A stretch of DNA of 64,000 nt from Actinomadura sp. DC4 (GTDB lineage: Bacteria > Actinomycetota > Actinomycetes > Streptosporangiales > Streptosporangiaceae): positions 1 to 64,000 of the forward strand of contig NZ_JAUEQY010000041.1 of NCBI RefSeq assembly GCF_030406325.1, given 5' to 3'. Shown here piece by piece: positions 14,204 to 29,420 of this stretch. A program made the translations under genes and the position numbers. Below the pieces are notes generated by a model, which made no database searches, was not told the DNA's origin, and was given only the letters and a program-made list of their open reading frames with translations. How positions within the stretch are numbered: position 1 is the first letter of the stretch; every line of letters begins with the position of its first letter.

Positions 14204-14360
14204 CTGACGATAACAGTCAGTAGCGGGACGATAACCCAGTGGAACCATCCGGCTGACGTAGGGCGGTTGCGTCAGTCTGGGGAGGGTTTTCCCGACCCCG
14301 CACCCGACGATCGATGGTGTCAGCCCGCACGAGCCTCGGCTGGAGAACCAGGTGTTCTCC
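14204..14360. promoter_or_regulatory. three inverted repeats upstream of polysaccharide operon
   Basis: CTGAC-N7-GTCAG (14204-14220), CTGACG-N11-CGTCAG (14253-14275) and GGAGAAC-N5-GTTCTCC (14342-14360) all fall in the 190 bp before the first operon gene. The first two share the CTGAC half-site and may bind one dimeric regulator. The third, in the leader, could be a hairpin. Confidence 0.45.
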
Positions 14361-14391
14361 GAGCATCGATCTGCCAAACGGGGGCACCCAA

Positions 14392-15198
14392 ATGCACGAG
14401 CCGGACTCTGTCCAACTCACCGACGGCATGCAATCCGGCGCGGTTCTGCATCACCTTGACGCCGCACGCCACCGCGCTTCCTGGCCGACGGTCTCCGCCG
14501 TCATCCCAACGCTCAACGAGGCCGAGAATCTCCGATGGCTCCTGCCCCGGCTCTCCGGGGTGGACGAGATCATCATTGTCGACGGCGAGTCCCAGGATGG
14601 CAGCGCCGACCTGGTACGGAAGCTTCGCCCGGACGCCGTCATCATCGAACAACCCCCCATCGGCAAAGGCGCCGCGATGCGCGCCGGCTTCCATGCCGCC
14701 ACCAGCGACGTGATCGTCTCCATCGACGCCGACGGAAGCATGGACCCCAAGGAGATCGACGCGTTCGTCGCGTTGATCTGCTGCGGGTTCGACGTCGTCA
14801 AGGGCTCCCGCCACTGCGTCGGCGGCGGCTCGGACGACCTGACCCTCATCCGCCGGGCCGGCAACCTCTGGCTCACCCGGCTCGCCAATATGCTGTACGG
14901 CGTCCGCTGGACCGACCTCTGCTACGGCTACATCGCCCTGCGCCGCTCGGTGGTCGACCGGCTCGGGCTCGCGGCCGACGGCTTCGAGATCGAGACCGAG
15001 CTGTGCGTCAACGCGATCACCGCCGGTCTCCGCGTCGCCGAGGTGCCCAGCCACGAGCTCGACCGCCGGAGCGGTGAGTCGAAGCTGAACGCACGCCGCG
15101 ACGGCCTGCGCGTCCTGCGCACCATGATGCGCAACCGGCGTACGCCCACGCGTCAGGTCCTCCCCCGCTACGAGCCCGGATTCGAGGAGGCAGGATGA
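14392..15198 (+). CDS. GT2 glycosyltransferase, DPM1-like
   Basis: 268 residues. GT-A fold with family 2 motifs: SAVIPTLNEAENL, VDGESQDGSADL, and the DxD-type DADGSMDP. No membrane segment is visible, so it probably uses a lipid-phosphate acceptor at the inner face of the membrane, as dolichol-phosphate mannosyltransferase-like enzymes do. ATG at 14392 follows GGGGGC and precedes the conserved domain. It is the first gene of the six-gene operon; its stop overlaps the next start by 4 nt. Confidence 0.9.
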   Translation: MHEPDSVQLTDGMQSGAVLHHLDAARHRASWPTVSAVIPTLNEAENLRWLLPRLSGVDEIIIVDGESQDGSADLVRKLRPDAVIIEQPPIGKGAAMRAGFHAATSDVIVSIDADGSMDPKEIDAFVALICCGFDVVKGSRHCVGGGSDDLTLIRRAGNLWLTRLANMLYGVRWTDLCYGYIALRRSVVDRLGLAADGFEIETELCVNAITAGLRVAEVPSHELDRRSGESKLNARRDGLRVLRTMMRNRRTPTRQVLPRYEPGFEEAG

Positions 15199-16268
15199 AC
15201 ATCGACGTCATCCGTCCCCACGAGCTGGGCGACGCCGAGCTGCGCCGCTGGCGCGACCTCCAACGCGAGACACTCGCCAACCCCTTCATGTCCCCCGAAT
15301 TCACCCTCGCGGTCGGACGGTTCCGCCCGGGCGCGCGGGTCGCGGTGCTCAGCGACGAGCGCGAGATCACCGGGTTCTTCCCGTACGAACGCCACGCCAT
15401 GGGCATCGGCCGGCCCATCGGCGCCGGGCTGACCGACTGCCAGGGGCTGATCGCGCCGCCCGGTCTCGACCTCGACGTACGGGCGCTGCTGCGCGCCTGC
15501 AGCCTGTCGGTCTGGGAGTTCGACCACCTGCTCGCCGAGCAGGCCGCCTTCGCCCCCTACCACGCGGAGACGCGCGCGGAACCGGTCATGGACCTGGCCG
15601 AGGGCTTCGCCGCGTACGAGGAACACGCCCGCGAACGGTCGCCCAAGACGATCAAGACGGTCCGCTACAAGGAGCGCAAGCTCGGCCGTGAGGCCGGCGA
15701 ACTCACCTACACCTTCAGCGAGGACGACCCGGCCGAGCTGCGGCGGCTGATGGACTGGAAGTCGGCCCAGTACCGCCGCACCGGCCGTACCGACCGCTTC
15801 GCTGAGCCGTGGATCGTCGCGCTCGTCGAGCACCTGCACGCGACCGGCACCGGTGTGCTGAGCGTCCTGCGCGCCGGCGGGCGGCCCGTCTCGGCCCACC
15901 TTGGGCTCCGCTCCGGGCCGGTGATGGCCGGCTGGTTCCCCGCGTACGACATGGAGTTCGCCCGCTACTCCCCCGGCATGGTCGGCCACCTGCGGATGGC
16001 GGAGGCGGCGGCCGGGGCCGGCGTCACGCAGATCGCGATGGGACGCGGCGGCCGTGAGTACAAGGACTGGCTGAAGAACGCGGAGTTTCCCATCGCCGAG
16101 GGCCGGGTGGCACGCGCGTCGGCCGCCGCCGGGTTGCACTGGGTCAAGGAGGCCCCCGTACGCCGGGCGCGCAGCGCCGTGCTCGCTCACCCCGGCCTGT
16201 ACGCGCGGGCGGACCGGGTCCTGAAGACGTACGCGCGCCTTCGCCGGGGCACCGGGGACGCCGCGTGA
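15195..16268 (+). CDS. FemAB/CelD-type GNAT acyltransferase
   Basis: 357 residues. It matches the Acetyltransf_6 (BioF2/CelD/FemAB-like) group by RSPKTIKTVRYKERKLGREA, the helix LMDWKSAQYRRTGRTDRF and the strand-rich end GRPVSAHLGLRSG with YDMEFARYSPG. Members acylate polysaccharide or peptidoglycan precursors. Within this operon, decoration of the exopolysaccharide is the natural inference. Four-base overlaps on both sides indicate translational coupling. Confidence 0.86.
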   Translation: MNIDVIRPHELGDAELRRWRDLQRETLANPFMSPEFTLAVGRFRPGARVAVLSDEREITGFFPYERHAMGIGRPIGAGLTDCQGLIAPPGLDLDVRALLRACSLSVWEFDHLLAEQAAFAPYHAETRAEPVMDLAEGFAAYEEHARERSPKTIKTVRYKERKLGREAGELTYTFSEDDPAELRRLMDWKSAQYRRTGRTDRFAEPWIVALVEHLHATGTGVLSVLRAGGRPVSAHLGLRSGPVMAGWFPAYDMEFARYSPGMVGHLRMAEAAAGAGVTQIAMGRGGREYKDWLKNAEFPIAEGRVARASAAAGLHWVKEAPVRRARSAVLAHPGLYARADRVLKTYARLRRGTGDAA

Positions 16269-17227
16269 AGATCTCCGTCGTCATCTGCGCCTACACCGAG
16301 AACCGCTGGGACGACGTCCTGGCCGCGGTCGGCTCCGTACACGCCCAGAGCCTGCCCGCGCACGAGGTCGTCGTCGTGGTCGACCACAACCCGGCGCTGC
16401 TGGGCCGGCTGCGTCCGGCGCTGCCGGGCGTCAGGGTGATCCCCAACTCCGGGCCCCGCGGCCTGTCCGGCGGCAAGAACGCCGGGGTCGCGGCGGCCAC
16501 CGGCGACGTCATCGCCTTCCTCGACGACGACGCGATCGCCGAGGCGGAGTGGCTGGCCTCGATGGCCGCACGCTACGACCGCCCCGAGGTCGCCGGGGTC
16601 GGCGGCCTCACGCTGCCGATGTGGAACGCCTCCGCGCCGCGCTGGTTCCCCGGCGAGTTCGCGTGGGTGGTCGGCTGCACCTACCGCGGCATGGTCGCGG
16701 GGCCGGTGCGCAACCTCATGGGCGGCAACGCGTCCTTCCGGCGCGAGGTGTTCGACCTCGCCGGGGGGTTCCGCAACGGCATCGGCCGTACGGCGGGCGG
16801 GCGGCCGCTGGGGTGCGAGGAGACGGAGTTCTGCATCCGGCTGCGGCAGGCCGTGCCCGAGACCGTGCTGCTGTTCGAGGACCGCGCGGTGATCTGGCAC
16901 CGGGTGCCATCCGAGCGGGCCCGGTTCTCCTACTTCCGCAGCCGCTGTTACGCCGAGGGGCTGTCCAAGGCGATGGTCACCCAGAGCGTCGGGGTCGGCG
17001 ACGGCCTGGCCAGCGAACGCCGGCACGCGCTGGTGGCGCTCCCGCGCGGCGTCGCGTACGGGCTGCGCGCCGCCGTCACCGGCGATCCGTACGGCCTGGG
17101 CCGCGCCGCCTCGATCGTCGCGGGGCTGGCGTTCACCACGGCCGGCTACGCCGCCGGGTCGATCCGCAGAAGCGAGCGTCGCCCGCCGGCGGTGAGCAAA
17201 CGGCGCACCGAACAGGAGGCACGATGA
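16265..17227 (+). CDS. GT2 glycosyltransferase
   Basis: 320 residues. Motifs: KISVVICAYTENRWDDVLAA, GGKNAGVAAATGDVIAFLDD with DDD as the nucleotide-sugar metal site, and acceptor-region GCEETEFCIRLRQ. It is probably a processive or single-step sugar transferase acting on a lipid-linked glycan. It has a hydrophobic C-terminal stretch (about 265-295) that may associate with membrane. The GTG start overlaps the preceding stop. Confidence 0.92.
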   Translation: MKISVVICAYTENRWDDVLAAVGSVHAQSLPAHEVVVVVDHNPALLGRLRPALPGVRVIPNSGPRGLSGGKNAGVAAATGDVIAFLDDDAIAEAEWLASMAARYDRPEVAGVGGLTLPMWNASAPRWFPGEFAWVVGCTYRGMVAGPVRNLMGGNASFRREVFDLAGGFRNGIGRTAGGRPLGCEETEFCIRLRQAVPETVLLFEDRAVIWHRVPSERARFSYFRSRCYAEGLSKAMVTQSVGVGDGLASERRHALVALPRGVAYGLRAAVTGDPYGLGRAASIVAGLAFTTAGYAAGSIRRSERRPPAVSKRRTEQEAR

Positions 17228-18006
17228 GCGGTGAGAGAACGCCGCTGCCGTACGGGCAGCGCGCGGTGCCGGTTCTCATGTACCACTCGATCGGCGGCGC
17301 CGGCCGGCTGGCCGTCCGCCCCGAGGCGTTCGCCGAGCAGATGGCCTGGCTCAAGGACGGCGGTTTCACCCCGCTGCCCTTCGGCGCCCGTACGCGGCGC
17401 GCCCTGCGGCCCGTCGTGATCACCTTCGACGACGGGTACGCCGACTTCCACACGCACGCGCTGCCGGTGCTGGAGAGCCTCGGTTTCGCCGCGACGGTGT
17501 TCGTCACGACCGGCTGGCTCGACGACGCCGGACCGTACGCCGCGGGCTCGCCGCCCGGCCGGATGCTCACCTGGGCGCAGACCGAGGAGATCACCTCCAC
17601 CGGGGTGGAGGTCGGCGCGCACGGCCACAGCCACCGCCAGCTCGACCAGCTCGGCGGCCCGGCCCTGCGCGAGGAGCTGCACCGCAGCCGGGAGCTGCTC
17701 CAGGAGCGGCTCGGCCGTCCGGTGCGGTCGATGGCCTACCCGTACGGCTACTCCAGCGCGCGGGTGCGCCGCGAGGTCCGCGCCTGCGGTTACACCTCCG
17801 CCTGCGCGGTGGCCAACGCGGTGATGACCGAACGCCATGACCCGTACGCCGTGCCCCGCGTGACCGTACGGGCCGGGACCTCCCTGGAGGGGTTCGGCCG
17901 GGCACTGGAGGGCCGCGGGTTCCGTACCGACCACGCGCTGACCAAGGGCTACGCCGTCGTACGCCGGTCCCGGTACGCGGCACGGCGGCTGCGGGGAGTC
18001 GCGTGA
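17224..18006 (+). CDS. polysaccharide deacetylase (NodB/CE4)
   Basis: 260 residues. NodB homology domain: VPVLMYHSIGG, VITFDDGYADF (catalytic base and metal Asp), HGHSHRQL (metal His pair) and the MAYPYGYSS motif. No signal peptide is visible, so it acts in the cytosol or is exported by another route. It is probably involved in trimming N- or O-acetyl groups from the operon's polysaccharide or its intermediate. ATGA overlap with the upstream gene. Confidence 0.92.
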   Translation: MSGERTPLPYGQRAVPVLMYHSIGGAGRLAVRPEAFAEQMAWLKDGGFTPLPFGARTRRALRPVVITFDDGYADFHTHALPVLESLGFAATVFVTTGWLDDAGPYAAGSPPGRMLTWAQTEEITSTGVEVGAHGHSHRQLDQLGGPALREELHRSRELLQERLGRPVRSMAYPYGYSSARVRREVRACGYTSACAVANAVMTERHDPYAVPRVTVRAGTSLEGFGRALEGRGFRTDHALTKGYAVVRRSRYAARRLRGVA

Positions 18007-21000
18007 CGCGGCCACGAGTCCTTGCGCGATCGCGGGAAGACGCGAAACTGAGGCGCATGATGGCGCTCCGGGGCGAGCTGTCGAACCCGCTGTTCCGCAA
18101 CGCGTACGCGCTGATGATCAACGGCGGGCTGACCGGAGCCCTGGGGCTCGGCTACTGGCTGCTCGCCGCGCGCATCTACGACCCCGCCGAGGTCGGGCGG
18201 CAGTCCGCGCAGAACCAGGCGATGATGTTCCTCGGCGGCCTGACCGCGCTGAACTTCATCCTCTTGCGGTTCATCCCCGAGATGGGCCCGCGCACCCGCG
18301 CGCTCGCGCTGCGCACCTACCTCGCCGGCGCGCTCGCGGCGGGCACGCTCGCCACCGGGTTCCTGCTCACGCTGCGGTTCTGGGGGCCGTCGTTCTCCCA
18401 CCTCGCCACGCCGGGGCGCGGGCTCTTCTTCGTGCTGGCGGTCGTGTCGTGGAGCCTGTTCACCGCACAGGACGGGCTGCTCACCGGCCTGCGGCGCGCC
18501 ACCTGGGTCCTGGGCAAGAACACCCTGTTCGCCTGCCTGAAGGTCGTGCTCCTCGTCGCGCTCGCGACCTCGCTGCCGGCCGACGGCATCACGGCGTCGT
18601 GGGTGCTGGCCGCGGTCGCGCTGCTGCTGCCGGTCGAGGTGCTCCTGCAGCGGCGGCTCATCCCCCGGCACGTCGAGGAGACCGTGAGCGACCGGCCGAT
18701 CCCCTCCGGCGGCCAGATCGGCCGCTACCTCGCCGGCGACTACACCGGCACGCTCTTCTACTACGCGCTGTGCAACCTCGTGCCGGTCGTTGTCGCGACC
18801 ACGCTCTCGGCCAGCGACAACGCGTACTTCTACATGGCCTGGGTGCTCGGCGCCACGGTCGACGTGCTCGCCGTGAACATGGCGATGTCGCTGACGGTCG
18901 AGGGCGCCTTCGACGCCGACGGCCTGGCCGTCGCCTGCCGGTCCGCGATGCGCCGCATGGCGCTCATCCTCGTACCGGTCACGGCGGTGATCTTCTTCGG
19001 CGCCGAGCCGGGGCTGTCGTTCTTCGGCCCCGGGTACGCCGACCACGGCGCGCCGCTGCTGCGGCTGCTCGCCCTCGCCGCGCTGCCCAAGGCACTGATC
19101 GAGCTGTACATCGGGGTGCTGCGGGTGCAGCGCCGTACGCGCGTGATCGCGTTGCTGCAGGCCGCGCGCTTCGCGGGCGTGCTCGCGCTCGTGCTGGCGC
19201 TGAGCGACGGCTCCGACATCACCGGGCCCGGGTACGCCGTGCTGGCGGTCACGATCGCGATCGCCGTTGCCGTCCTACCCGGGCTGCTCCGGGCCACCTC
19301 GCCCGTGGCGGCCGCCCCGGTGGTGGACGAGCCGGAAGCGCCGCAGGTCACGCCGAGCCCGTCCGTGAGCAAGATGCGGGACGAGCCCGGCGAGCCGGAG
19401 CCCACCCGGCGGCCGTGGGGCGCGGCGCTCGCCTGGACGCTGTTCCTGACCGGGCTCGGGCTGTACTGGCTGCCGCTGCGCCACGTGAATCTCGACGCGA
19501 TGAACGGCTTCGGCCTCGTATCGGTGCTGCCGATCGCCACGTTCGTCGGCGGCGCGCTGCTCGTCGTGGCCTTCATGTTCACGCTGTGGCTGCGCCGCCC
19601 GTACCGCATGCTCCTGCTGCTCCAGCTCGTGGCGATCATCGTGTCGCTGCACGGCCTGGCGCCCGCCCTGGAGCCGTACGCCCGGCCGCCGACGGCCTGG
19701 CAGCACAACGGTTTCGTGGAGTACATCACCCGGACGGGCCACGCGGACTACGCGCTGGACGCGCGATTCAGCTGGCCGGGCTTCTTCGCGCTGATCGCGT
19801 TCGTCACGCGCGTGGCCGGCGTGCACGACCTGGAGCCGATCCTGCACTGGGCGCCGGTGGCGAGCCAGCTGCTCTACCTCGCGCCGATGTACCTCATCCT
19901 GCGGGTGATGCGGGCGAACTGGCGGGCCCAGTGGCTGGCCGCGTGGCTGTTCGCCGCGGCCGACTGGGTGGGCCAGGACTACTTCTCCCCCCAGGGCTTC
20001 GGCTACCTGCTCTACCTCGTCTTCATCGGCATCCTGCTCAACTGGTTCCGCCCCGCCGCGCGGCCGATCGCGCGGGTGGAGAAGACCGGGCGGCTGCGCT
20101 CGTTCGTCCGCGGCCCGTTCGCCTCCGGAGAACGACCACCGGTGTCAGTGTCGGCCGGCGACCGTACGGTCCTGCTGTTCGTGCTCGTCGTCGTCTTCGC
20201 GGTCACGACCGCGAGCCACCAGCTCACCCCGTTCCTGATCTTCTTCGTCTGCGGCGCGCTCGTGCTCCTGCGCCGCTGCACGGCGCGCGGCCTGCCCATC
20301 CTGCTCGGCGTCATGGTGGCGAGCTGGATCAGCTTCATGACCACGGCGTACTGGGTCGGGCACATCGGCGACCTGTTCTCCGGCCTGGGCGCGCTGCTGT
20401 CGAACCTCACCGGCGGCGTGGCCGGGCGCGTCAGCAAGGGCAGCGAGAGTCTCGCCACGGTCCAGACGGGCCGGATCCTGATCGCCGGCACCGTCATGAT
20501 GGTCGCGGCGCTGGGCCTGCTGCGGCGGAGGCTGCGGCGCATCGACGACCGGGTGGCGCTGGTGCTGCTCGTCGTGCCGTTCCTCGCGGCCGGGCTGCAG
20601 AGCTACGGCGGCGAGATCGCGCTGCGGGTCTATCTCTTCGTCATCCCGGGCGCCTGCATCCTCGCCGCGTACCTGTTCTTCCCGACGACGTTCACCGCGC
20701 CGCGCCGGACCCTGGCGGTGCTGACCGCGTCGGTGTGCGGGCTGCTGATCGCGGGCGGTTTCCTGTTCGTACGGTTCGGCAACGAGAACTTCGAGCAGGT
20801 ACGGCCGGGCGACGTGCACGCGTTCGACGCGATGCTCGACCAGTCGCCGGGCACCATGATCAACGTGGTCTGGATCGCGGACCCGCAGGACGACGCCGGA
20901 TACTTCCCGATGATGCCGTGGGGCTCGCGGGACATGGAGCACTTCGACTACAGCGCCGTACGCGCGCCGTACGACCCGTCGGACGTCACGCAGATCGTCC

Positions 21001-21431
21001 AGGCGCTGCTGGACCGGCCGGGCGGCTACTTCGTCACCACGCGCGGCAACGAGGCGTACAACCACTTCAACTACGGCCTGCCCGTGTCGTACGGCGACCG
21101 CCTGCGTGCCGCGCTGGCGGCGTCGCCCCAGCTCCGTACGGTGGTGGTGAACGACGACGCGGCCGTCTACACGCTGCGCAACCCGCCGGCGGGCGTCGCA
21201 CCGCCGCCGGCCCGCCCGCCGCACTTCGGCGTGCACCACACGACGTGGACCCCGATCGGCCTGTGCGCCATCCCGCTGCTGATCGTGATCCTGGTCGCCC
21301 GCGAGGTGCTGCGCGTACGGCTGCGCCCAGGCGAGACGTGGCGCCTGCAGCCGCTGACCGTGTGGTCGAGCTTCCTGGTGATCGTGCTCGCGGTCGTCAT
21401 CGTGGAACGCTTCCTGACCTTGGGAGGGTGA
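18003..21431 (+). CDS. fusion of MOP-type polysaccharide flippase and GT-C-like membrane domain
   Basis: 1142 residues. Residues about 20-430 are a Wzx-like lipid-linked oligosaccharide flippase (NPLFRNAYALMINGGLTGAL, then multiple hydrophobic helices). A Pro/Glu-rich linker (about 435-475) leads to a second polytopic half with about ten further helices. It has an extracytoplasmic acidic loop (YALDARFSWPGFFALIAF) and the DYFSPQGFGYLLYL segment seen in GT-C-like actinobacterial membrane proteins. A soluble outer domain (about 930-1060) precedes the last two helices. Flipping and extracytoplasmic transfer or polymerisation in one chain is the inferred role. Confidence 0.82.
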   Translation: MTRPRVLARSREDAKLRRMMALRGELSNPLFRNAYALMINGGLTGALGLGYWLLAARIYDPAEVGRQSAQNQAMMFLGGLTALNFILLRFIPEMGPRTRALALRTYLAGALAAGTLATGFLLTLRFWGPSFSHLATPGRGLFFVLAVVSWSLFTAQDGLLTGLRRATWVLGKNTLFACLKVVLLVALATSLPADGITASWVLAAVALLLPVEVLLQRRLIPRHVEETVSDRPIPSGGQIGRYLAGDYTGTLFYYALCNLVPVVVATTLSASDNAYFYMAWVLGATVDVLAVNMAMSLTVEGAFDADGLAVACRSAMRRMALILVPVTAVIFFGAEPGLSFFGPGYADHGAPLLRLLALAALPKALIELYIGVLRVQRRTRVIALLQAARFAGVLALVLALSDGSDITGPGYAVLAVTIAIAVAVLPGLLRATSPVAAAPVVDEPEAPQVTPSPSVSKMRDEPGEPEPTRRPWGAALAWTLFLTGLGLYWLPLRHVNLDAMNGFGLVSVLPIATFVGGALLVVAFMFTLWLRRPYRMLLLLQLVAIIVSLHGLAPALEPYARPPTAWQHNGFVEYITRTGHADYALDARFSWPGFFALIAFVTRVAGVHDLEPILHWAPVASQLLYLAPMYLILRVMRANWRAQWLAAWLFAAADWVGQDYFSPQGFGYLLYLVFIGILLNWFRPAARPIARVEKTGRLRSFVRGPFASGERPPVSVSAGDRTVLLFVLVVVFAVTTASHQLTPFLIFFVCGALVLLRRCTARGLPILLGVMVASWISFMTTAYWVGHIGDLFSGLGALLSNLTGGVAGRVSKGSESLATVQTGRILIAGTVMMVAALGLLRRRLRRIDDRVALVLLVVPFLAAGLQSYGGEIALRVYLFVIPGACILAAYLFFPTTFTAPRRTLAVLTASVCGLLIAGGFLFVRFGNENFEQVRPGDVHAFDAMLDQSPGTMINVVWIADPQDDAGYFPMMPWGSRDMEHFDYSAVRAPYDPSDVTQIVQALLDRPGGYFVTTRGNEAYNHFNYGLPVSYGDRLRAALAASPQLRTVVVNDDAAVYTLRNPPAGVAPPPARPPHFGVHHTTWTPIGLCAIPLLIVILVAREVLRVRLRPGETWRLQPLTVWSSFLVIVLAVVIVERFLTLGG

Positions 21432-22808: not shown

Positions 22809-22950
22809 CTCTTTGTTGTCATCTTACCTTGTGATTATCTTGCCGAGAAAGGGGCGGGGAATGCTAGAAAGCACGGCACCCTTCTTGGACATTCGGGGAG
22901 TGCCGGTTCGTGAGGGCCATCGTGCCATTCCGACAAAAAAGGAGACCGAC
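22809..22950 (+). promoter_or_regulatory. conserved leader block, peptide cassette 1
   Basis: 142 bp before the start codon of peptide 1. Conserved elements in order: CTCTTTG-GGTCATCTTAC-like box, TTATCTTGCCG, GGGGAATGCTAGAA, GAGGGCCATCGTGCCATTCC, then ribosome site GGAGACC. The same order and nearly the same length recur before peptides 3, 4, 5 and 6. Confidence 0.75.
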
Positions 22951-23271
22951 GTGCTGAAGAAGACGTGTGCCACTGGCGGGCTGGTTCTCGCCGCCGCCGC
23001 TGGCGCTCTGTTCACTGGCTCGCCCGTGTCTGCTCAGGTTCCGACGTGGGGCGGCGGCTGCTGCGGCTCCCACAGCTCCTTCCGGCACTACTCGCGGCAC
23101 CACAACCGCAACTGGAACGGAAACGAGAACTCGAACCTGAACCACATCAGGCTCCACCTCAACAACCGCAACAACAACATCGCGGTTGCCCGCACGGGCC
23201 GTGACCGTGGCGACGACGGCCTCGGCATCGGCGGCCTCGGTGGTGGCCTGGGCGGCGGAGACGACGACTAG
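22951..23271 (+). CDS. secreted Asn/Arg/His-rich peptide 1 (sub-family A)
   Basis: 106 residues. Sec signal peptide (MLKKTCATGGLVLAAAAGAL, cleavage after VSA near residue 28). The mature part has a GGGCC pair, His/Ser/Arg-rich stretch, the family core NRNWNGNEN, then HIRLHL-NNRNNN-IAVAR, and a Gly/Asp-rich tail (GLGGGLGGGDDD). The core reads as strand, Asn-rich turn, strand. GTG start with GGAG ribosome site. Not a lipobox, since the Cys pair is well inside the mature chain. Family not recognised. Confidence 0.82.
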   Translation: MLKKTCATGGLVLAAAAGALFTGSPVSAQVPTWGGGCCGSHSSFRHYSRHHNRNWNGNENSNLNHIRLHLNNRNNNIAVARTGRDRGDDGLGIGGLGGGLGGGDDD

Positions 23272-23383
23272 TCGCGTCGCGACACCTAGGACGGCGGACG
23301 CCGCTGCGATCCAGCCGCGTCCACGACTCTTCGTTTGGAACGGCCGACTGAGCCGCTGAGTCGCCAGACCGCCCGTACATCAC

Positions 23384-23411
23384 GGGCGCCGGGGTGACGA
23401 CTCCGGCGCCC
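23384..23411 (+). terminator. cassette hairpin 1 (between peptides 1 and 2)
   Basis: GGGCGCCGG and CCGGCGCCC, 9-bp perfect stem around a 10-nt loop, without a long T tract. An overlapping alternative stem (GCCCG at 23371 with CGGGC at 23383) would exclude it. Confidence 0.7.
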
Positions 23412-23469
23412 CTCGCTCGCTACCGCGAGACCACCCAAAAAGGCCGATTTCGGCAATTAGGAGGCAGAC

Positions 23470-23874
23470 GTGCTCAAAAAGACGAGCGCCTCTATTGGAC
23501 TTGTCATCGCCGCAGCAGCCGGCGCACCGCTTACGAGCTCGCCCGCATACGCCCACGCGAACATGGTGCGGGGCTGGCACGCCCATTACAGCCACCGCTC
23601 GCACCACCGGAACCAGAACTGGAACGGAAACCGGCACCGCGGTCGAATATTTATCCGTATTTATATCTACAACAAGAACAACAACCACGCTGTCGCCATC
23701 GCACAGCCGGAGCGCCGCGAGCGCCGGGAGCCCCGGCGCGAGTCGTTCGGCAACGGCGGCCCGCTCTTCGCGAATCAGCGGCAGGGCGAGGTGGCCGGCC
23801 AAGGCCTCGCGGACGGCGGCCAAGGCGTCTCCGGTACGGGCCAGGGGGCCGTAGGTACGGTCCCGGTGGGTTGA
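23470..23874 (+). CDS. secreted Asn/Arg-rich peptide 2 (sub-family B)
   Basis: 134 residues. Signal peptide MLKKTSASIGLVIAAAAGAP with AYA cleavage site, no Cys pair, then HRSHHRNQNWNGN and the B-type core IFIRIYIYNKNNNHAVAIA. The charged and Gly/Gln-rich tail is longer than in A members. It lacks the conserved leader block and follows peptide 1 with only a hairpin between, so it is probably made by read-through. Ribosome site TTAGGAGG. Confidence 0.8.
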   Translation: MLKKTSASIGLVIAAAAGAPLTSSPAYAHANMVRGWHAHYSHRSHHRNQNWNGNRHRGRIFIRIYIYNKNNNHAVAIAQPERRERREPRRESFGNGGPLFANQRQGEVAGQGLADGGQGVSGTGQGAVGTVPVG

Positions 23875-23981
23875 TCCCGGTAACGCCGCTGGGGCGGACC
23901 GGCCCACGACGGCCACCGGCGCATTGGCCCTCGGCCTCCATTCTGGTAAGGCCGCCATATCACCGGCTCGCCCCACTTATC

Positions 23982-24009
23982 GGGCGCCGGGGCGAACACT
24001 CCGGCGCCC
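23982..24009 (+). terminator. cassette hairpin 2 (after peptide 2)
   Basis: Same GGGCGCCGG / CCGGCGCCC 9-bp stem with a 10-nt loop, followed by TGATATTTAAC. Confidence 0.72.
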
Positions 24010-24030
24010 TGATATTTAACGACACGTAGG

Positions 24031-24172
24031 CTCTTTGAGGTCATCTTACCTAGCGATTGTCTTGCCGGGAAAGCACCAGGGAATGTTAGAAAGCGCGGCG
24101 CTCCGGAAAACGTACGAGAGCGCCGGGTTCGTGAGAGCCATCGCGCCATTCCAACAACGAAGGAGACCGACC
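24031..24172 (+). promoter_or_regulatory. conserved leader block, peptide cassette 3
   Basis: 142 bp, exactly the length of the peptide 1 block: CTCTTTGAGGTCATCTTACC, TTGTCTTGCCG, GGGAATGTTAGAA, GAGAGCCATCGCGCCATTCC, then AAGGAGACC. Confidence 0.75.
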
Positions 24173-24457
24173 GTGCTGAAGAAGACGGCCGTAACCGGCG
24201 GCCTGCTGATCACCGCAGCCGCCGGCGCCCTAGTGACCACCTGCTCGCCCGTTTTCGCCTCACCCACCCACCTGGCTTCGAACCACAACCGGAACTGGAA
24301 TGGGAGCGAGAACGAGGGCTACAACCACATCCGGCTGCGCATCCACAACCGCAACAACAACGTCGCAGTCGCCCGCACGCAGCGCCGCGAGCGCGACAGA
24401 GAGCCCGTCTGGATGGCACCCAAGCCGCCCATGGCGCCGCCGGTAGCGGTTGGCTGA
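24173..24457 (+). CDS. secreted Asn/Arg-rich peptide 3 (sub-family A, no Cys pair)
   Basis: 94 residues. Signal peptide MLKKTAVTGGLLITAAAGAL, cleavage near VFA. The mature part is shortened: the Cys-containing segment is missing, leaving NHNRNWNGSENEGYNHIRL and the turn HNRNNNVAVAR. The tail is basic then Pro/Met-rich (MAPKPPMAPPVAVG). One unpaired Cys lies at the end of the signal region. Shortest-headed A member, possibly a deletion derivative that still keeps the core. Confidence 0.8.
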   Translation: MLKKTAVTGGLLITAAAGALVTTCSPVFASPTHLASNHNRNWNGSENEGYNHIRLRIHNRNNNVAVARTQRRERDREPVWMAPKPPMAPPVAVG

Positions 24458-24549
24458 CGTTTCCGGGCGGTCGATGCGGACGCCTCTGCACTGACCATCG
24501 AACCGGCTGTGCCCGGTGACCGCGTGAACGCCCGGTCACCTTAGGAATC

Positions 24550-24588
24550 GGGCGTCGAGGCGCATGCTTCGACGCCCTTTTAATTTTT
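24550..24588 (+). terminator. cassette hairpin 3 with T tract
   Basis: GGGCGTCGA / TCGACGCCC with a 10-nt loop, followed by TTTTAATTTTT. The stem sequence varies from the other hairpins with compensating changes on both arms. Confidence 0.88.
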
Positions 24589-24598
24589 CCAGCACAGG

Positions 24599-24742
24599 CT
24601 CTTTGTGGCCACCTTACTCATTACGTATGTTGACCGGATAGCGCCGGGGAACATTACAGATCGAGGCGCTCTCAAAAAGCAAACGAAAGCGCCGCTTCGT
24701 GAGAGCCATCGCGCCAATTTCGAATAACGAAGGAGACCTATC
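24599..24742 (+). promoter_or_regulatory. conserved leader block, peptide cassette 4
   Basis: 144 bp: CTCTTTGTGGCCACCTTACT, a diverged second box, GGGGAACATTACAGA, GAGAGCCATCGCGCCAATTT, AAGGAGACC. It is less conserved in the centre than blocks 1, 3 and 6. Confidence 0.7.
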
Positions 24743-25000
24743 GTGCTCAAGCAGATGATCGCGGCCGGCGGTATCCTCGCCGCCGCTGTCGCAGGCGCTG
24801 CCGTCACCACCGGGACCGCCTCCGCGACTTCCATGGGAGGTGGCTGCTGCGCCAGCTCCCACAGCTCGTTCTACCAGAACCACCGCAACCGCAACTGGAG
24901 CGGCAACGAGAACGAGAACCTGAACCACATCCGGCTGCACCTCCGCAACCGCAACAACAACATCGCCGTCGCCCGGGTAGACCCGGAAGAGCGTCGATAG
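24743..25000 (+). CDS. secreted Asn/Arg-rich peptide 4 (sub-family A, minimal)
   Basis: 85 residues, the shortest member. Signal peptide MLKQMIAAGGILAAAVAGAA, cleavage near ASA. Mature part: MGGGCC, SSHSSFYQNH, NRNWSGNENENLNHIRL, HLRNRNNNIAVAR, then only nine more residues (VDPEERR end). It defines the minimal unit of sub-family A: Cys pair, His/Ser segment and strand-turn-strand core. Confidence 0.82.
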   Translation: MLKQMIAAGGILAAAVAGAAVTTGTASATSMGGGCCASSHSSFYQNHRNRNWSGNENENLNHIRLHLRNRNNNIAVARVDPEERR

Positions 25001-25106
25001 CAGGGCACGGTCCGGGCTGATCGACTGACCGGACCGTGTATGCCGCCGGAACTCGGTCGCGACTTCTTGCGGAAGAAGGCCACGACGACCACTGAGTAAA
25101 TGCGGC

Positions 25107-25138
25107 AAGGGCGCCGGAGCCACCGCTTCGGCGCCCTT
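25107..25138 (+). terminator. cassette hairpin 4
   Basis: AAGGGCGCCG / CGGCGCCCTT 10-bp stem, 12-nt loop, then CACGGTTTTT. Confidence 0.8.
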
Positions 25139-25142
25139 CACG

Positions 25143-25281
25143 GTTTTTGAGGTTAACTTACTCGTTCACTGCATTGCCTCGAATAGCACAGGGAATGTTT
25201 CAAATGCGACGCTCAATTAGTACACCGAAGCGTCGATCTGTAAAGGGCCATCGCGCCATTTCGATAGCAAGGAGACCCACT
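25143..25281 (+). promoter_or_regulatory. conserved leader block, peptide cassette 5
   Basis: 139 bp: TTTTTGAGGTTAACTTACTC, GGGAATGTTTCAAA, AAGGGCCATCGCGCCATTTC, AAGGAGACCC. Its first bases double as the T tract of hairpin 4. Confidence 0.7.
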
Positions 25282-25587
25282 GTGCTCAAGAAGACGTGCG
25301 TCGCCAGCGGCATGTTGATCGCCGCGACCGCCGGCGCCATCCTGACCAGCCTGCCCGCGTTCGCCGCGGCTCCCTCGTGGGGCGGTGGCTGCTGTAGCAG
25401 CTCTCACAGCCGGTTCGGTCACTTCTCGCACAACCGCAGCTGGAACGGTTCTGAGAACGAAGGTCTCAATCACATCCGGCTCCACCTGAACAACCGCAAC
25501 AACAACGTCGCCGTCGCGCGTACCAATCACCGCGACGACGACGGCCTCGGCCTGCCCGGGGGCGCCACGGGCGGCGCCGCCGGCTGA
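25282..25587 (+). CDS. secreted Asn/Arg-rich peptide 5 (sub-family A)
   Basis: 101 residues. Signal peptide MLKKTCVASGMLIAATAGAI with AFA cleavage site, then SWGGGCCSSSHSRFGHFSHN, SWNGSENEGLNHIRLHLNN, RNNNVAVAR and an Asp/Gly-rich tail (DDDGLGLPGGATGG). Its signal and Cys region are almost identical to peptide 6, so these two are the most recent duplicates in the array. Confidence 0.83.
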   Translation: MLKKTCVASGMLIAATAGAILTSLPAFAAAPSWGGGCCSSSHSRFGHFSHNRSWNGSENEGLNHIRLHLNNRNNNVAVARTNHRDDDGLGLPGGATGGAAG

Positions 25588-25680
25588 TCATCTCCTACGG
25601 GCCGAACGCCGAGTATGTCGCGGCAGTTCGAACAAGGCTCGGGAAACGCCTTTCGGAGCCTTCGAAGTCGCCTTGAAGTC

Positions 25681-25715
25681 AGGGCGTCAGGGTTATTACT
25701 CTGACGCCCTTTTTC
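25681..25715 (+). terminator. cassette hairpin 5 with T tract
   Basis: AGGGCGTCAG / CTGACGCCCT perfect 10-bp stem, 10-nt loop, TTTTT follows. Compensated sequence change relative to the GGGCGCCGG hairpins. Confidence 0.88.
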
Positions 25716-25731
25716 ATTGTCCCGCCATATC

Positions 25732-25872
25732 GTCTTTGTGGTCATCTTACTCAACGATTGTCTTGGCGCCGGATACGACCGGGAATGCTAGAAGACGCGA
25801 CACCTTCTTCGATATTCGAGGGTGTTGGCTCGAAAGAGCCACCGCGCCATTCCGATAAAGAGGAGACCGAAC
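25732..25872 (+). promoter_or_regulatory. conserved leader block, peptide cassette 6
   Basis: 141 bp: GTCTTTGTGGTCATCTTACT, TTGTCTTGGCG, GGGAATGCTAGAA, AGAGCCACCGCGCCATTCCG, AGGAGACCG. Very close to blocks 1 and 3. Confidence 0.75.
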
Positions 25873-26178
25873 GTGCTTAAGAAGACGTGCGTCGCCGGCG
25901 GCATGCTGATCGCCACGGCCGCCGGTGCAATGATCACCAGCCTGCCCGCGTTCGCCGCGGCTCCCTCGTGGGGCGGCTGCTGCAGCAGCTCGCACAGCCG
26001 TTTCTTCCACAACGCGCGGAACCGGAACTGGAATGGGAACGAGTCCGAGAACCTGAACCACATCCGGCTTCGCCTTCACAACCGCAACAACAACATCGCC
26101 GTCGCGCGTACCCAGCAGGAAGAAGAGGAGGGGCATCGCGCTCCGGTGATCGGCGCCGGGATCGGCGCGCCGATCTGA
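25873..26178 (+). CDS. secreted Asn/Arg-rich peptide 6 (sub-family A)
   Basis: 101 residues. Signal MLKKTCVAGGMLIATAAGAM with AFA site, SWGGCCSSSHSRFFHNARN, NWNGNESENLNHIRLRLHN, RNNNIAVAR, then an acidic patch (QQEEEEGH) and a short hydrophobic end. One Gly fewer before the Cys pair than its sister peptide 5. It is followed by a B-type gene, repeating the arrangement of peptides 1 and 2. Confidence 0.83.
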   Translation: MLKKTCVAGGMLIATAAGAMITSLPAFAAAPSWGGCCSSSHSRFFHNARNRNWNGNESENLNHIRLRLHNRNNNIAVARTQQEEEEGHRAPVIGAGIGAPI

Positions 26179-26241
26179 TCGACCTGACGGCAGGGTGGTT
26201 TCTCGCGGCCGGTTCGGCCGCCGTACCACCCACCTCGCACC

Positions 26242-26269
26242 GGGCGCCGGGGTGACGACTCCGGCGCCC
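26242..26269 (+). terminator. cassette hairpin 6 (between peptides 6 and 7)
   Basis: GGGCGCCGG / CCGGCGCCC with a 10-nt loop identical to the loop of hairpin 1 (GGTGACGACT), the other A-to-B junction. No T tract. Confidence 0.72.
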
Positions 26270-26432
26270 TTCGCTCGTCGGGACGACGCGCCGGCGAGAG
26301 ACCAGACGACGACCGGCCGCGTGGCCGGGACCCAAGCACAGCGACCCGATCCGTGGCGCACGACCTGTTCGACGCCTAGAACAAGCGCCCTTTCACGCCG
26401 CCCGCGGGTCGATCGAGAATGAGGAGACCGAC

Positions 26433-26909
26433 GTGCTGAAGAAGACAAGCGCCTATACCGGGCTGGTGATCGTCACAGCCGCCGGCGCCCTGCTCGCTGG
26501 CTCGCCCGCGTACGCCCTGGACAGCCTGGTGACCGGCTCACATGTGCGCATCCACCACCGTTCCCACCACCGGAACCACAACTGGAACGGGCACCAGCAT
26601 CACGCCCGGATCTTCATCCGGATCTACATCTACAACAAGAACAACAACCACGCCGTGGCCGTGGCGAAGCCGGAACACCGGCGGCGCGCCCGGTACATCG
26701 CCCCCATGGGCGGGGTGACCGGCGCGGCCGGAAGCGGAGGCGGCGTGCCGGCCCCGGCGAACGGAGGCGCGGCCGCGGCTCCCGCCGTGTCGAACGCGGC
26801 CCCGGCAACAACGACGGTGGCACCGGACACAAGTGGCGCCCCGAGCACCCTGGGCGCGTCGGGCACGGCGCCCATGGACGCCGGCGCGACCGGCAATGTA
26901 AGCCCGTGA
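26433..26909 (+). CDS. secreted Asn/Arg-rich peptide 7 (sub-family B, long tail)
   Basis: 158 residues. Signal MLKKTSAYTGLVIVTAAGAL with AYA site, HHRSHHRNHNWNGHQHH, B-type core IFIRIYIYNKNNNHAVAVA, a basic patch (RRRAR), then about 75 residues of Ala/Gly/Pro/Thr-rich low complexity resembling a wall-spanning spacer. No leader block; the ribosome site GAGGAGACC is retained. Closest relative in the window is peptide 2. Confidence 0.8.
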   Translation: MLKKTSAYTGLVIVTAAGALLAGSPAYALDSLVTGSHVRIHHRSHHRNHNWNGHQHHARIFIRIYIYNKNNNHAVAVAKPEHRRRARYIAPMGGVTGAAGSGGGVPAPANGGAAAAPAVSNAAPATTTVAPDTSGAPSTLGASGTAPMDAGATGNVSP

Positions 26910-26982
26910 TAGCCACAAATTAGTACATACCGGACGTGTCTTGCAGGCGCGGTAAAACCCGCGCTGGAACCGTCCGCGGACC

Positions 26983-27009
26983 GGGCGCCGGAGCACCGCT
27001 CCGGCGCCC
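26983..27009 (+). terminator. cassette hairpin 7
   Basis: GGGCGCCGGAGC / GCTCCGGCGCCC 12-bp stem with a 3-nt loop, followed by AAAATTGC rather than a T tract. Confidence 0.75.
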
Positions 27010-27147
27010 AAAATTGCGGATTTCTCCTTTTTTGGCCCCCCTCTTACCCCATCGTGGCACCGTCTCGAAACTGTGCGGGCATGTACGCCATGGCGCCCAA
27101 ATCGGGCATCAGTGGCCTTCGTACCATTTCCGCAAGAAGGAGACGAC

Positions 27148-27573
27148 GTGCATAAGAAGTCATACGCCCTTGCCGTTCTGGCCGTTGCCGCGGCGGGTGG
27201 TGTGTTGCTCACCGGCTCACCCGCCAACGCCGGCACGCTCGTACAGGGATATCGGCACCACCATTACTCGAGCCACCGCAATTACAACCGCAACGCGAAC
27301 TGGAATCGCAATCACAACCGCGTCGTCGTACGCGTGAACGTCCGCAACCACAACGTCAACACCGCGTGGGCGGGCCGCGACCGCGACCGCGACGACGACT
27401 TCGGGCTGTTCCGGCATCGCTGCGGCTTCGGTTGCGGCAATCGGTTCAACCGGTTCGACGACTTCGACGACGACGACGACCGCGGCTTCCGCCGCGGTGG
27501 CGGCGACGACGATGACGGCGGAGACAGAATCATCGTCGGCAACGACATCCGCACGGCCGGCGACCGCGACTAG
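27148..27573 (+). CDS. secreted peptide 8, divergent member with Asp/Arg-rich tail
   Basis: 141 residues. Signal MHKKSYALAVLAVAAAGGVL with ANA cleavage. The mature chain starts with a Tyr/His-rich stretch (GYRHHHYSSHRNYNRN), then NWNRNHNRVVVRVNVRNHN in place of the standard core, WAGRDRDRDD, a CGFGCG motif and a long Asp/Gly/Arg tail (DDFDDDDDRGF). It keeps family spacing but the strand-turn-strand element is VVVRVNV. The leader resembles the block but is about 20 bp shorter. Possibly a metal- or polyanion-like surface protein. Confidence 0.78.
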   Translation: MHKKSYALAVLAVAAAGGVLLTGSPANAGTLVQGYRHHHYSSHRNYNRNANWNRNHNRVVVRVNVRNHNVNTAWAGRDRDRDDDFGLFRHRCGFGCGNRFNRFDDFDDDDDRGFRRGGGDDDDGGDRIIVGNDIRTAGDRD

Positions 27574-27659
27574 GACGGCTGACGCGGCATACGCCCGCGG
27601 AGGCGACTCTGGTCAGAAACGGCCGCAAAGGCCGCCGAGTCGCTGAGCCGCCCGGAGTG

Positions 27660-27693
27660 GACCGGGTGCCGGGGTACGCCCCGGCACCCGGTC
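27660..27693 (+). terminator. cassette hairpin 8
   Basis: 15-bp perfect stem GACCGGGTGCCGGGG with its complement around a 4-nt loop; the longest hairpin of the array and its end. Confidence 0.82.
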
Positions 27694-27768
27694 ACGCTCG
27701 TCACCCCAGCGATCGCCCAACCTGCACGTAGACGGGCAGATCGGCCGCTCATGGAAACCGCACCGACG

Positions 27769-27825
27769 GCCGGTAGGCCGGGTCACCGCCGGTAGACCAC
27801 GTCACAGCCGTAGGGCCGGGTCACC
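27769..27825. repeat. three imperfect 19-bp tandem repeats
   Basis: Units GCCGGTAGGCCGGGTCACC, GCCGGTAGACCACGTCACA and GCCGTAGGGCCGGGTCACC lie head to tail in the gap between the peptide array and the P450 gene. The rest of this 250-bp gap shows nothing. Confidence 0.75.
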
Positions 27826-27945: not shown

Positions 27946-29187
27946 TCAGGTGCGGTAGGGGAGGTGTTTGATTCCGTTGTCGAAATTGGACAGGAGGAGT
28001 TCCGGGGGGCCGGCGGCGCGGAGGGTGGGGACTCGGGTGAAGAGTTCGCGGAACATCGCGCTCAGCTCTCGGCGGGCCAGGTGGGCGCCCAGGCACAGGT
28101 GGGGGCCCGGGCCGCCGAAGCCGACGTGGGGGTTGGGGGTGCGGGTGATGTCGAATCTGTCGGGTTCGGGGAAGACGTCCTCGTCTCGGTTGGCCGACAG
28201 GTAGTAGAGGACGACCTTCTCCCCCTTGCGGTAGGCCTGGCCGTTCATCTCGTGATCGCAGGTCAGCGTGCGCTGAAACTGGATGATCGGGGACACGTAG
28301 CGCACGATCTCCTCGATGGCGCCGCCGATGCGGCGGTCGAAGTCGGCCAGGAGGATGGCGCGCTGGTCGGGGTGGTCGGTGAACAGTCTCAGGCCGTGCG
28401 CCAGGGCGTTGCGGGTCGTCTCGTTTCCCGCGACCAGCAGCAGGTCGAAGAACGCGCCCAGCTCTCGTACGGAGAGGCGTTCGTCTTCGACGTCCGCGGT
28501 GACCAGGGCCGAGATCAGGTCGTCGGCCGGCGACTCGCGGCGTTCTCGGCCCAGGTGGGCGACCAGGCGGTGCAGGTCGACGATGGCCTTGAGGTTGCCG
28601 CCCAAGAGGCGGAGCGTACGGAGGCGGGTGACGTCGCCGCGTACGCCGGAGTATTCGGTCATCGCGTCCACGCAGGCGGCGACCTTCGCGTGATGGTGTT
28701 CCGGGATGCCCATCATGGTGCAGATGACCTTGATCGGGAGCCGGGCCGCGACGTCGGTCACGAAGTCGCCCGAGCCCGCCTGCAGGACGTCGTCGACGAT
28801 CTCGGTGGCGGTCTTGGCGATGTGCTCCTCGATCTGTTCGAGCCGCCGCGGGGTGAACGCGCGGGACACGATGCGCCGTAGTCGCGCGTGCCGTGGGTCG
28901 TCCATGTTGACCATGGGCCGGCCGAACAGCAGTGAGATCCACGGCGGCGGCTCGGGTGAGGTCGCGGCCGGCTCGCTGCTGAACACCTTGGCGTTGCGGC
29001 TCGCGTACACGACGTCGGCGTGCCGTACGAGGGCATGGAAACCCCGGCCCGCACGTACGAACGGGATGCGCTGCTCGGCGAAGAAGGCGGGGCGGTCGAG
29101 CGCCCGTAACCGCGCGAACGCCGCCAGCCGCTCCTCGGGAGGCCGCGCCCAGAAGTCGAGCGCGGTGAGATCGTCCACGTCCTTCAT
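27946..29187 (-). CDS. cytochrome P450
   Basis: 413 residues from ATG 29187, after a GGCGGGGGACG ribosome site. Heme-binding loop FGGPGPHLCLGAHLA with the proximal Cys, I-helix AGNETTRNALAHGL (acid-Thr pair) and EEIVRYV (ExxR). Of the soluble bacterial type, related by feel to CYP124/125-like enzymes that hydroxylate lipids or terpenoids, but the substrate cannot be assigned. No ferredoxin or reductase gene adjoins it. Confidence 0.94.
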   Translation of the reverse strand: MKDVDDLTALDFWARPPEERLAAFARLRALDRPAFFAEQRIPFVRAGRGFHALVRHADVVYASRNAKVFSSEPAATSPEPPPWISLLFGRPMVNMDDPRHARLRRIVSRAFTPRRLEQIEEHIAKTATEIVDDVLQAGSGDFVTDVAARLPIKVICTMMGIPEHHHAKVAACVDAMTEYSGVRGDVTRLRTLRLLGGNLKAIVDLHRLVAHLGRERRESPADDLISALVTADVEDERLSVRELGAFFDLLLVAGNETTRNALAHGLRLFTDHPDQRAILLADFDRRIGGAIEEIVRYVSPIIQFQRTLTCDHEMNGQAYRKGEKVVLYYLSANRDEDVFPEPDRFDITRTPNPHVGFGGPGPHLCLGAHLARRELSAMFRELFTRVPTLRAAGPPELLLSNFDNGIKHLPYRT

Positions 29188-29420
29188 CGCGTCCCCCGCC
29201 TTGCCCCGTCGCCCATGACGGCCGGGCACCTGCCGGCCCACTGCCATGAGGCGTGTCTGACAAATCTCCCGTACGGCCTGGCCGCTCCGCTCCGGACAGC
29301 GCCGCCCGGCCCCCGTACACGATCGCCTCTCACGGTCGTTCCCCCGGTTGTGATGTCGTCTGTTCGACGCCGGTCCGCGCTGCGGCGGTCACGTGCCGGA
29401 CCGGCCGGATCGAGCCAGGC

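Follow-up and report, generated by a model that had tools for sequence, protein, structure and literature searches.

Eight small exported proteins, encoded head to tail on the forward strand of a genome of the genus Actinoallomurus, are best read as members of a new protein family, and the array of paralogous genes that encodes them (positions 22951-27573) is, to judge from its relatives, an old, stable set rather than a shuffled repertoire. The array lies in a window of 64,000 nucleotides, that is, the whole stretch of DNA analysed (positions 1 to 64,000 of contig NZ_JAUEQY010000041.1, assembly GCF_030406325.1, listed as Actinomadura sp. DC4), and the genome comprises 10.67 Mb in 101 contigs. 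Then, what could such an array be for? The explanation to which we give about an even chance is that these are structural proteins, which are made under the control of a shared leader, exported and assembled in the matrix, aerial-hypha surface or spore coat alongside the polysaccharide of an adjacent operon.

The eight genes and their conserved core

The genes of the array fall into three types, defined by their cores, and are listed below in window coordinates.

22951..23271, + strand: gene 1, 106 residues, type A, NHIRLHLNNRNNNIAVAR core, CC motif
23470..23874, + strand: gene 2, 134 residues, type B, RIFIRIYIYNKNNNHAVAIA core, without leader
24173..24457, + strand: gene 3, 94 residues, type A
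24743..25000, + strand: gene 4, 85 residues, type A
25282..25587, + strand: gene 5, 101 residues, type A
25873..26178, + strand: gene 6, 101 residues, type A
26433..26909, + strand: gene 7, 158 residues, type B, without leader
27148..27573, + strand: gene 8, 141 residues, type D, VVRVNVRNHNVNTAWAG core, with an Asp/Arg/Cys C-terminus of its own

Each gene starts with GTG, and AGGAG is found 5-7 nucleotides upstream. A profile built from the eight proteins matches them with E values from 1.7e-44 to 4.8e-32, the next-best place in the same genome reaching 3e-6, and the family is also present in the seven other genomes of the genus; the single gene family described in an initial annotation of the window is thus real. 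The 3e-6 match, on another contig (C30, L009/L061), was rejected as a member, being the N-terminus of a long frame and probably of low complexity. By eye, the frame at L061:6331-7632 has an Asn/Arg-rich N-terminus before a serine beta-lactamase-type domain.

All eight proteins share one layout, in which a Sec-type signal peptide (recognised by eye, with an unclear cleavage site in gene 3) is followed by an Asn/His/Arg/Gly-rich segment and then by the conserved core, [h-x-h-x-h]-N[RK]NNN-[IV]A[VI]A. Across 29 aligned members, the columns N72, N74, A78 and A80 (gene-1 numbering) are invariant. A recognisable turn motif occurs in 68 of 71 members, about six rows being framed on an earlier motif; before the turn, hydrophobic residues occupy positions -7, -5 and -3 in 85, 91 and 93% of them, and positions -6, -4 and -2 in 1, 25 and 32%. 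Behind the N-[RK]-N-N-N turn follows [IV]-A-[VI]-A, the Ala at +5 and that at +7 each being present in 56 of the 68. Note that the Asn counts of the turn itself are circular, because the rows were selected by the turn motif. The alternation suggests that the core is a strand-turn-strand unit, as the initial annotation had proposed together with the signal peptides. Purifying selection acts on the core: in two genome pairs, its ratio of nonsynonymous to synonymous substitution rates (dN/dS) is 0.15-0.16, compared with 0.45-0.50 for the tails.

No match beyond chance was obtained for any of the eight proteins in Pfam or NCBIfam, whose scans recognised no enzymatic domain in them, and only chance-level matches to the cores were found among PHROGs and the sequences of the PDB. 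In these databases, the earlier impression that no named family fits is borne out. Nor was a description of the family found in the open-access papers searched.

Subtypes, gene order and distribution

Type A (genes 1, 3, 4, 5 and 6) is characterised by the motif NHIRLHL-NRNNN-IAVAR, type B (genes 2 and 7) by RIFIRIYIY-NKNNN-HAVAIA and long tails, and type D (gene 8) by VVRVNVR-NHNVN-TAWAG. The Actinoallomurus genomes compared include the source genome (G000), A. iriomotensis (G003), isolates RYN_221 (G004) and RYN_226 (G002), A. soli (G001), A. spadix (G005), G006 and G007. G000, G006 and G004 have the identical eight types in identical order. In a tree of 65 rows, members group by array position across these three genomes, and largely also in G003 and G002, with supports of, for example, 98/97 for position 1, 100/95 for position 3, 98/91 for position 5 and 99/97 for position 8; the first gene of G002 is unplaced. 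Members from G007, G001 and G005, a second species group that has its own type-A radiation, join type B with a support of 89/78 (not starred) and type D with 99/92. It should be noted that the tree rests on few columns (a program warning) and that the degenerate gene-2 copy of A. iriomotensis was omitted. In that copy (L062:7385-8416), the core motif is lost and a long Thr/Pro-rich frame is now seen by eye.

All eight Actinoallomurus genomes examined contain the family, with 6-11 matches each, pieces included and some beyond the main locus. A scan of named genomes with five type-A rows gave seven loci in six records from five genomes, all Actinoallomurus. The initial annotation had suggested a profile search over actinomycete proteomes; at E<=1e-3, a core-only profile, without the signal peptide, matched 14 of 341 family genomes (eight Actinoallomurus, three of genus g51, one of g49 and two of g4). 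At the level of the order, with largely the same genomes, the same 14 were found among 345, and in a phylum-wide draw of 396 genomes at E<=1e-4 the sole match was the source genome. These counts are lower bounds, because a member in G516 (genus g49) escaped the core profile.

In two A. iriomotensis members found outside the main array (L043:8001-8999 and L043:11488-12624), the core is followed by collagen-like repeats (E 1e-13 and 2.5e-23) and by a C-terminal region; among the extracted members, such repeats were seen only in these two. In genus g51, the loci L058 and L112 hold arrays of small signal-peptide proteins with a related core, QR[VI]IVINRNNN, and without the leader; membership of two other g51 loci, L113 and L114, rests on core-profile matches, the open-reading-frame filter having listed nothing there. 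Tandem small His/Asn-rich proteins (HINNHNTNVNRPVVV) in G072 (L057:7750-9732) were matched via the signal peptide. G072 was rejected as a carrier of the family, since the core profile has no match there at E 1e-3, and so were the matches in G062, which rest on the signal peptide and are chaplin-like by eye.

Leaders

Full leaders precede genes 1, 3, 4, 5 and 6, a short variant precedes gene 8, and genes 2 and 7 are without a leader. This agrees with the earlier statement that a common leader opens most of the genes.

22809..22950, + strand: leader 1, 151.4 bits; z -0.11 for its single fold, no improvement over shuffles
24031..24172, + strand: leader 3, 144.5 bits; single fold a three-way junction, z -2.45
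24599..24742, + strand: leader 4, 110.8 bits
25143..25281, + strand: leader 5, 98 bits; z +1.22 for its single fold, poorer than shuffles
25732..25872, + strand: leader 6, 122.6 bits; z -2.33, with a fold different from that of leader 3
27028..27147, + strand: leader 8, shorter variant, 23.2 bits; z -1.51

From 5' to 3', the leader has the block CTTT-N9-TTACC-N12-TTGCC, then GGGAAUG, two stems (P2, which is variable, and P3, whose loop by eye is often of the GNRA type), CAUUCC and the ribosome site AAGGAG. The leader of gene 8 is matched weakly by the leader model (E 0.0044 in one search and 0.17 in another). That the leader is a coding extension of the genes seems unlikely: in genes 1, 3 and 5 the frame stays open through it, but AGGAG precedes each GTG.

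The upstream DNA of 61 members was sampled, L044 and L046 being omitted as duplicates of L063 and L064. By regular expression, the block is present before 44 members and absent before 17, one of which (in A. iriomotensis, before L062:9194) retains the leader's 3' portion (E 6.4e-6). A MAFFT alignment was made from 34 of the 44, with nine short leaders like that of gene 8 and an aberrant one (before L062:10091) set aside. In this alignment, 84.6% of the pairing cells are paired, compared with 32-47% in slid controls, and both the covariation score and the number of two-sided cells exceed 500 of 500 shuffles. P2 shows G-C to A-U exchanges at two pairs, in five and eight sequences, respectively. 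When four leaders of the second genus, g49, are added, 83.7% of the cells are paired and the covariation score is reached by 3 of 500 shuffles. Overall, the comparative support for an RNA structure appears moderate and mixed. A search of positions 22600-27800 against Rfam 15 at E<=5 gave three matches to microRNA models, all below cut-off, and the loci of five relatives gave none.

A model built from Actinoallomurus leaders only, and run with strict filters on 150 family genomes, matched seven at E<=0.01, five of them Actinoallomurus and two of genus g49. G055 has four full leaders (68.6-89.2 bits), located before family genes or, at a contig end, before the first part of such a gene, and the leader of G516 (94 bits) precedes a signal-peptide gene with the core-like NHNKNHNRNHITIRIHNSNEN, which the protein search had missed. 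This shows that the leader and the protein family travel together. In the loci of g51, g4 and G072 that were searched, the model found no match.

Weaker leader-like elements (E 3e-4 to 0.33) were seen before other low-complexity signal-peptide proteins, which are His-rich in G000, G006 and G002 and Arg-rich in G005, A. soli and G007 (L150:3688-3960 on the - strand, L153 and L154; L151, L152 and L155). Four of these elements were folded, with z values from -1.41 to +0.92, and no fold stood out clearly from shuffles. Such elements hint at a larger regulon, which is not secure.

Hairpins and transcription units

By eye, a GC hairpin lies 3' of every gene, as the initial annotation had it, while a U-rich tail and a terminator score are found only after genes 2, 3, 4 and 5.

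23384..23411, + strand: after gene 1, GC hairpin without U-run between genes 1 and 2, a possible processing or attenuation element
23982..24009, + strand: after gene 2, terminator-like (terminator scan)
24550..24577, + strand: after gene 3, terminator-like (terminator scan)
25107..25138, + strand: after gene 4, terminator-like (terminator scan)
25681..25710, + strand: after gene 5, terminator-like (terminator scan)
26242..26269, + strand: after gene 6, GC hairpin without U-run between genes 6 and 7
26983..27009, + strand: after gene 7, GC hairpin without U-run, by eye
27661..27692, + strand: after gene 8, GC hairpin without U-run, by eye

The hairpins between genes 1 and 2 and between genes 6 and 7 are near-identical (repeat family D9, 97%), and a type-B gene comes next in both cases. 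In the loci examined, the type-B motif occurs in 12 genes, and each of these is without the leader block and has a leader-bearing gene directly upstream. Between G000 and G006, 88% of the aligned bases are conserved in the 1-2 gap and 84% in the 6-7 gap, compared with 68-81% in the five other gaps; of the leaders, three stand at 80-83% and the other three at 90-96%. Genes 1-2 and 6-7 are thus predicted to form two A-B bicistrons, in which the internal hairpin would lower the amount of B. Consequently, the earlier picture of self-contained cassettes does not fit every gene, since genes 2 and 7 lack a leader and are predicted to be second in bicistronic units. The span assigned to the array at the outset, 22809..27693, begins where leader 1 begins and ends where the last hairpin ends. 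The scan found no known sigma-70 promoters at the array.

Neighbouring genes

The array is flanked by the following features.

14314..21428, + strand: polysaccharide operon, upstream of the array
27946..29247, - strand: cytochrome P450 gene, bounding the locus on the side opposite to the operon

The operon contains two GT2 genes (at 14314 and 16265), a GNAT gene of the Acetyltransf_6 family (15195), a polysaccharide deacetylase gene (17224; PF01522, E 4.6e-28) and a gene (18003) for a protein of 1142 residues, which is membrane-like by eye and has no match in Pfam or NCBIfam. Both the polysaccharide genes and the gene for the 1142-residue protein lie upstream of the array in all eight Actinoallomurus genomes. 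The P450 gene bounds the array in seven of the eight, and the contig ends in the eighth; in A. iriomotensis it stands beside a split-off part of the array that holds gene 8. Farther downstream in the window, positions 38543-63994 of the - strand form a single open frame of about 8,483 codons, which perhaps extends past the window.

Comparison with known surface proteins

Surface assembly in aerial actinomycetes is known mainly from Streptomyces, with its chaplins, rodlins and SapB, and recent work has reportedly dealt with the spore proteins of Actinoplanes. By analogy, the array proteins may resemble chaplins, rodlins and curlins in their mode of working. The chaplins of Streptomyces (ChpA-H, PF03777) are likewise multi-copy, small, exported paralogues of an aerial-mycelium former, with beta-rich cores such as are proposed here; however, where chaplins have the chaplin domain the array proteins have the Asn-turn core, and ChpA-C (PF03777) gave no match at E<=1 in the eight proteins or in the 29 aligned members (28 full-length ones beside gene 1). 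A family search located chaplins elsewhere in all eight Actinoallomurus genomes, and therefore the array adds to the chaplins and does not replace them. By eye, the full leader block of the array is not seen upstream of the chaplin genes L117 and L118 of the source genome; the DNA upstream of L118 shares GCCATGTTAC with some array leaders. The same genome has a frame of 588 residues with several ChpA-C domains in a row (L119, G000:C48, about 40192-41364, - strand), and multi-chaplin frames of 525-620 residues occur in six other Actinoallomurus genomes.

In the curlins CsgA and CsgB, an alternating strand, an Asn-containing turn and another alternating strand are combined with a logic of major and minor subunits, a combination that the array may resemble. 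Unlike curlins, the array proteins carry one core each and no tandem repeats. The curlin repeat model (Curlin_rpt, PF07012) found no match in the arrays of the eight genomes, the E. coli control being detected. Its two matches outside the arrays barely pass the cut-off; they lie in isolates RYN_226 (L161, a frame of 855 residues) and RYN_221 (L162, 850 residues). BclA is a collagen-like protein of exosporium filaments; the likeness to proteins of its type lies in the collagen-like repeats behind the core of the two A. iriomotensis members, the comparison being one of repeats and not of cores.

The rodlins RdlA and RdlB of Streptomyces are two related secreted subunits with non-equivalent roles, to be compared with types A and B, while the array differs from them in its larger number of copies, the A-B pairing and the linkage to polysaccharide genes. 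According to one report, the fibril region of RdlB is proposed to be a beta-hairpin and its peptides contain Asn and Gly (PMC5314377). A 42-residue RdlB fragment taken from that text, the sole rodlin sequence compared, gave no alignment with gene 1. Actinoallomurus is placed in Thermomonosporaceae. Another report describes aerial mycelium and looped spore chains for one Actinoallomurus strain (PMC4539421).

A proposed role and its alternatives

A structural role in the matrix or at the aerial surface is suggested by the export signals, the Asn-turn core with free tails, the fixed order of subunits, the linkage to the polysaccharide operon and the collagen-like relatives. The surface or matrix role assumed in the initial annotation fits these data as far as export, the lack of a recognised enzymatic domain, the operon in all eight genomes and the collagen-like repeats of two members are concerned. 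In the proposed mechanism, the strand-NRNNN-strand core would assemble into a fibrillar or sheet-like extracellular component, and the proteins would work jointly with the polysaccharide from the adjacent operon. Type A would be the bulk subunit and type D a capping or specialised member; type B would be made in lower amounts, set by the hairpin within the A-B transcript, and would act as a partner that nucleates or anchors. The repeated leader would likely set expression in common, through a promoter-like block and a 5' untranslated region that may fold as a three-way junction, whose closing stem P1 (GGAAUG/CAUUCC) ends just before the ribosome-binding site. Since UUCC of the leader can pair with AGGAG of the ribosome-binding site instead of forming P1, the leader may switch translation on and off. 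A bolder version sees in the array a new functional fibre of actinomycetes, in which a fixed A/B/D set of single-repeat Asn-turn beta-arches is joined with a deacetylated polysaccharide, and a repeated RNA switch governs the stoichiometry and also controls other exported low-complexity proteins; we regard it as tentative and on balance improbable.

Several observations weigh against the structural explanation, or against parts of it. In A. iriomotensis the array is in two parts, with gene 8 and a gene-4-like member about 14 kb onward, beyond unrelated genes (L062/L045, G003:C3, about 481-501 kb); G006 has an opposite-strand frame of 515 residues between operon and array; and neither the polysaccharide genes nor the P450 gene were found in the flanks fetched from other genera. 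Taken protein by protein, strand alternation is weakly supported by permutation (P 0.027 to 0.14 for the eight), the strand being short. Codon usage gives no clear mark of high expression for the array genes, and one type-B gene, in isolate RYN_226, partly and weakly matches the leader model (E 0.19). As for the RNA, the pairs with two-sided changes and the further pair types are not above shuffles (312 and 419 of 500 reach them), and covariation is unable to prove the outer stem, because that stem is nearly invariant. Among the six leaders of the window (z -2.45, -2.33, -1.51, -1.32, -0.11 and +1.22), only that of gene 3 has the full junction as its best fold. RNAalifold yields P2 and two short alternatives, with UCC paired to the ribosome-binding site instead of P1, but no junction. 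Together with two short type-D leaders that fold either way, this result suggests two alternative states of the leader, short of proof. Two leaders of G055 were no better than shuffles when folded (z +0.96 and +0.12); what the second genus shows is a conserved leader sequence and not a structure.

Could the leader then act as DNA, as a site for a developmental regulator with a promoter, and without any RNA switch? This is a real possibility to which we nevertheless give somewhat less than even weight, and it is compatible with the structural role of the proteins. CTTT-N9-TTACC is among the most conserved parts of the leader, and matches to the block pattern with at most two mismatches are confined to the array in the source genome (four, with one for the reversed control); moreover, covariation is moderate, and the junction is missed by RNAalifold and most single folds. 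On the other hand, the compensated changes in P2, the GNRA-like loops of P3, the share of paired cells far above the slid controls and the position immediately 5' of the ribosome-binding site all speak for RNA. For the proteins themselves, a rather unlikely alternative is that they do not polymerise and are cationic, His/Asn-rich binders of wall or polysaccharide, tuning surface charge or metal binding through Arg, His and Asn side chains. The calculated isoelectric point exceeds 8 in seven of the eight mature proteins, the operon includes a deacetylase, and the weak leader-like elements stand before exported His- and Arg-rich proteins; yet the strongest constraint is on the strand-turn-strand core and not on charge, which by calculation varies from +0.4 to +9.5.

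Far less probable is a repertoire of warheads, in which the genes would encode exported antimicrobial or signalling peptides, either bacteriocin-like or precursors of P450-modified RiPPs (ribosomally synthesised and post-translationally modified peptides). It would account for the small size and export of the products, the CC motif in four of the five type-A genes of the window and the P450 gene at the edge of the locus. However, the members are conserved and orthologous by position, the core shows no sign of diversification, and of the flanking genes scanned none was recognised as coding for immunity, a maturase or a transporter; in addition, the P450 gene is on the opposite strand, a GH39 gene lies between it and the array in four of the eight genomes, and every NCBIfam match of the P450, a RiPP-related one among them, is below cut-off. 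The least credible of the alternatives, hardly to be expected on these data, is that recombination between repeats varies which surface component is made. Head-to-tail paralogues with repeated leaders invite it, and the initial annotation had named dosage, phase or repertoire variation; but most genes have a leader of their own, a layout with silent cassettes was not seen, and phase or repertoire variation is left unsupported because members group by array position across species, with constant gene order in G000, G006 and G004 and a low dN/dS in the core in the two genome pairs. Dosage may still play a part.

If the structural explanation with its shared leader is true, the array would provide a compact model for setting subunit ratios in an extracellular fibre, together with a candidate regulatory RNA. 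For the genus, the data suggest that Actinoallomurus maintains, in addition to its chaplins, another set of exported beta-prone proteins that is genus-wide, has a leader repeated before most of its transcription units and is tied to a polysaccharide operon.

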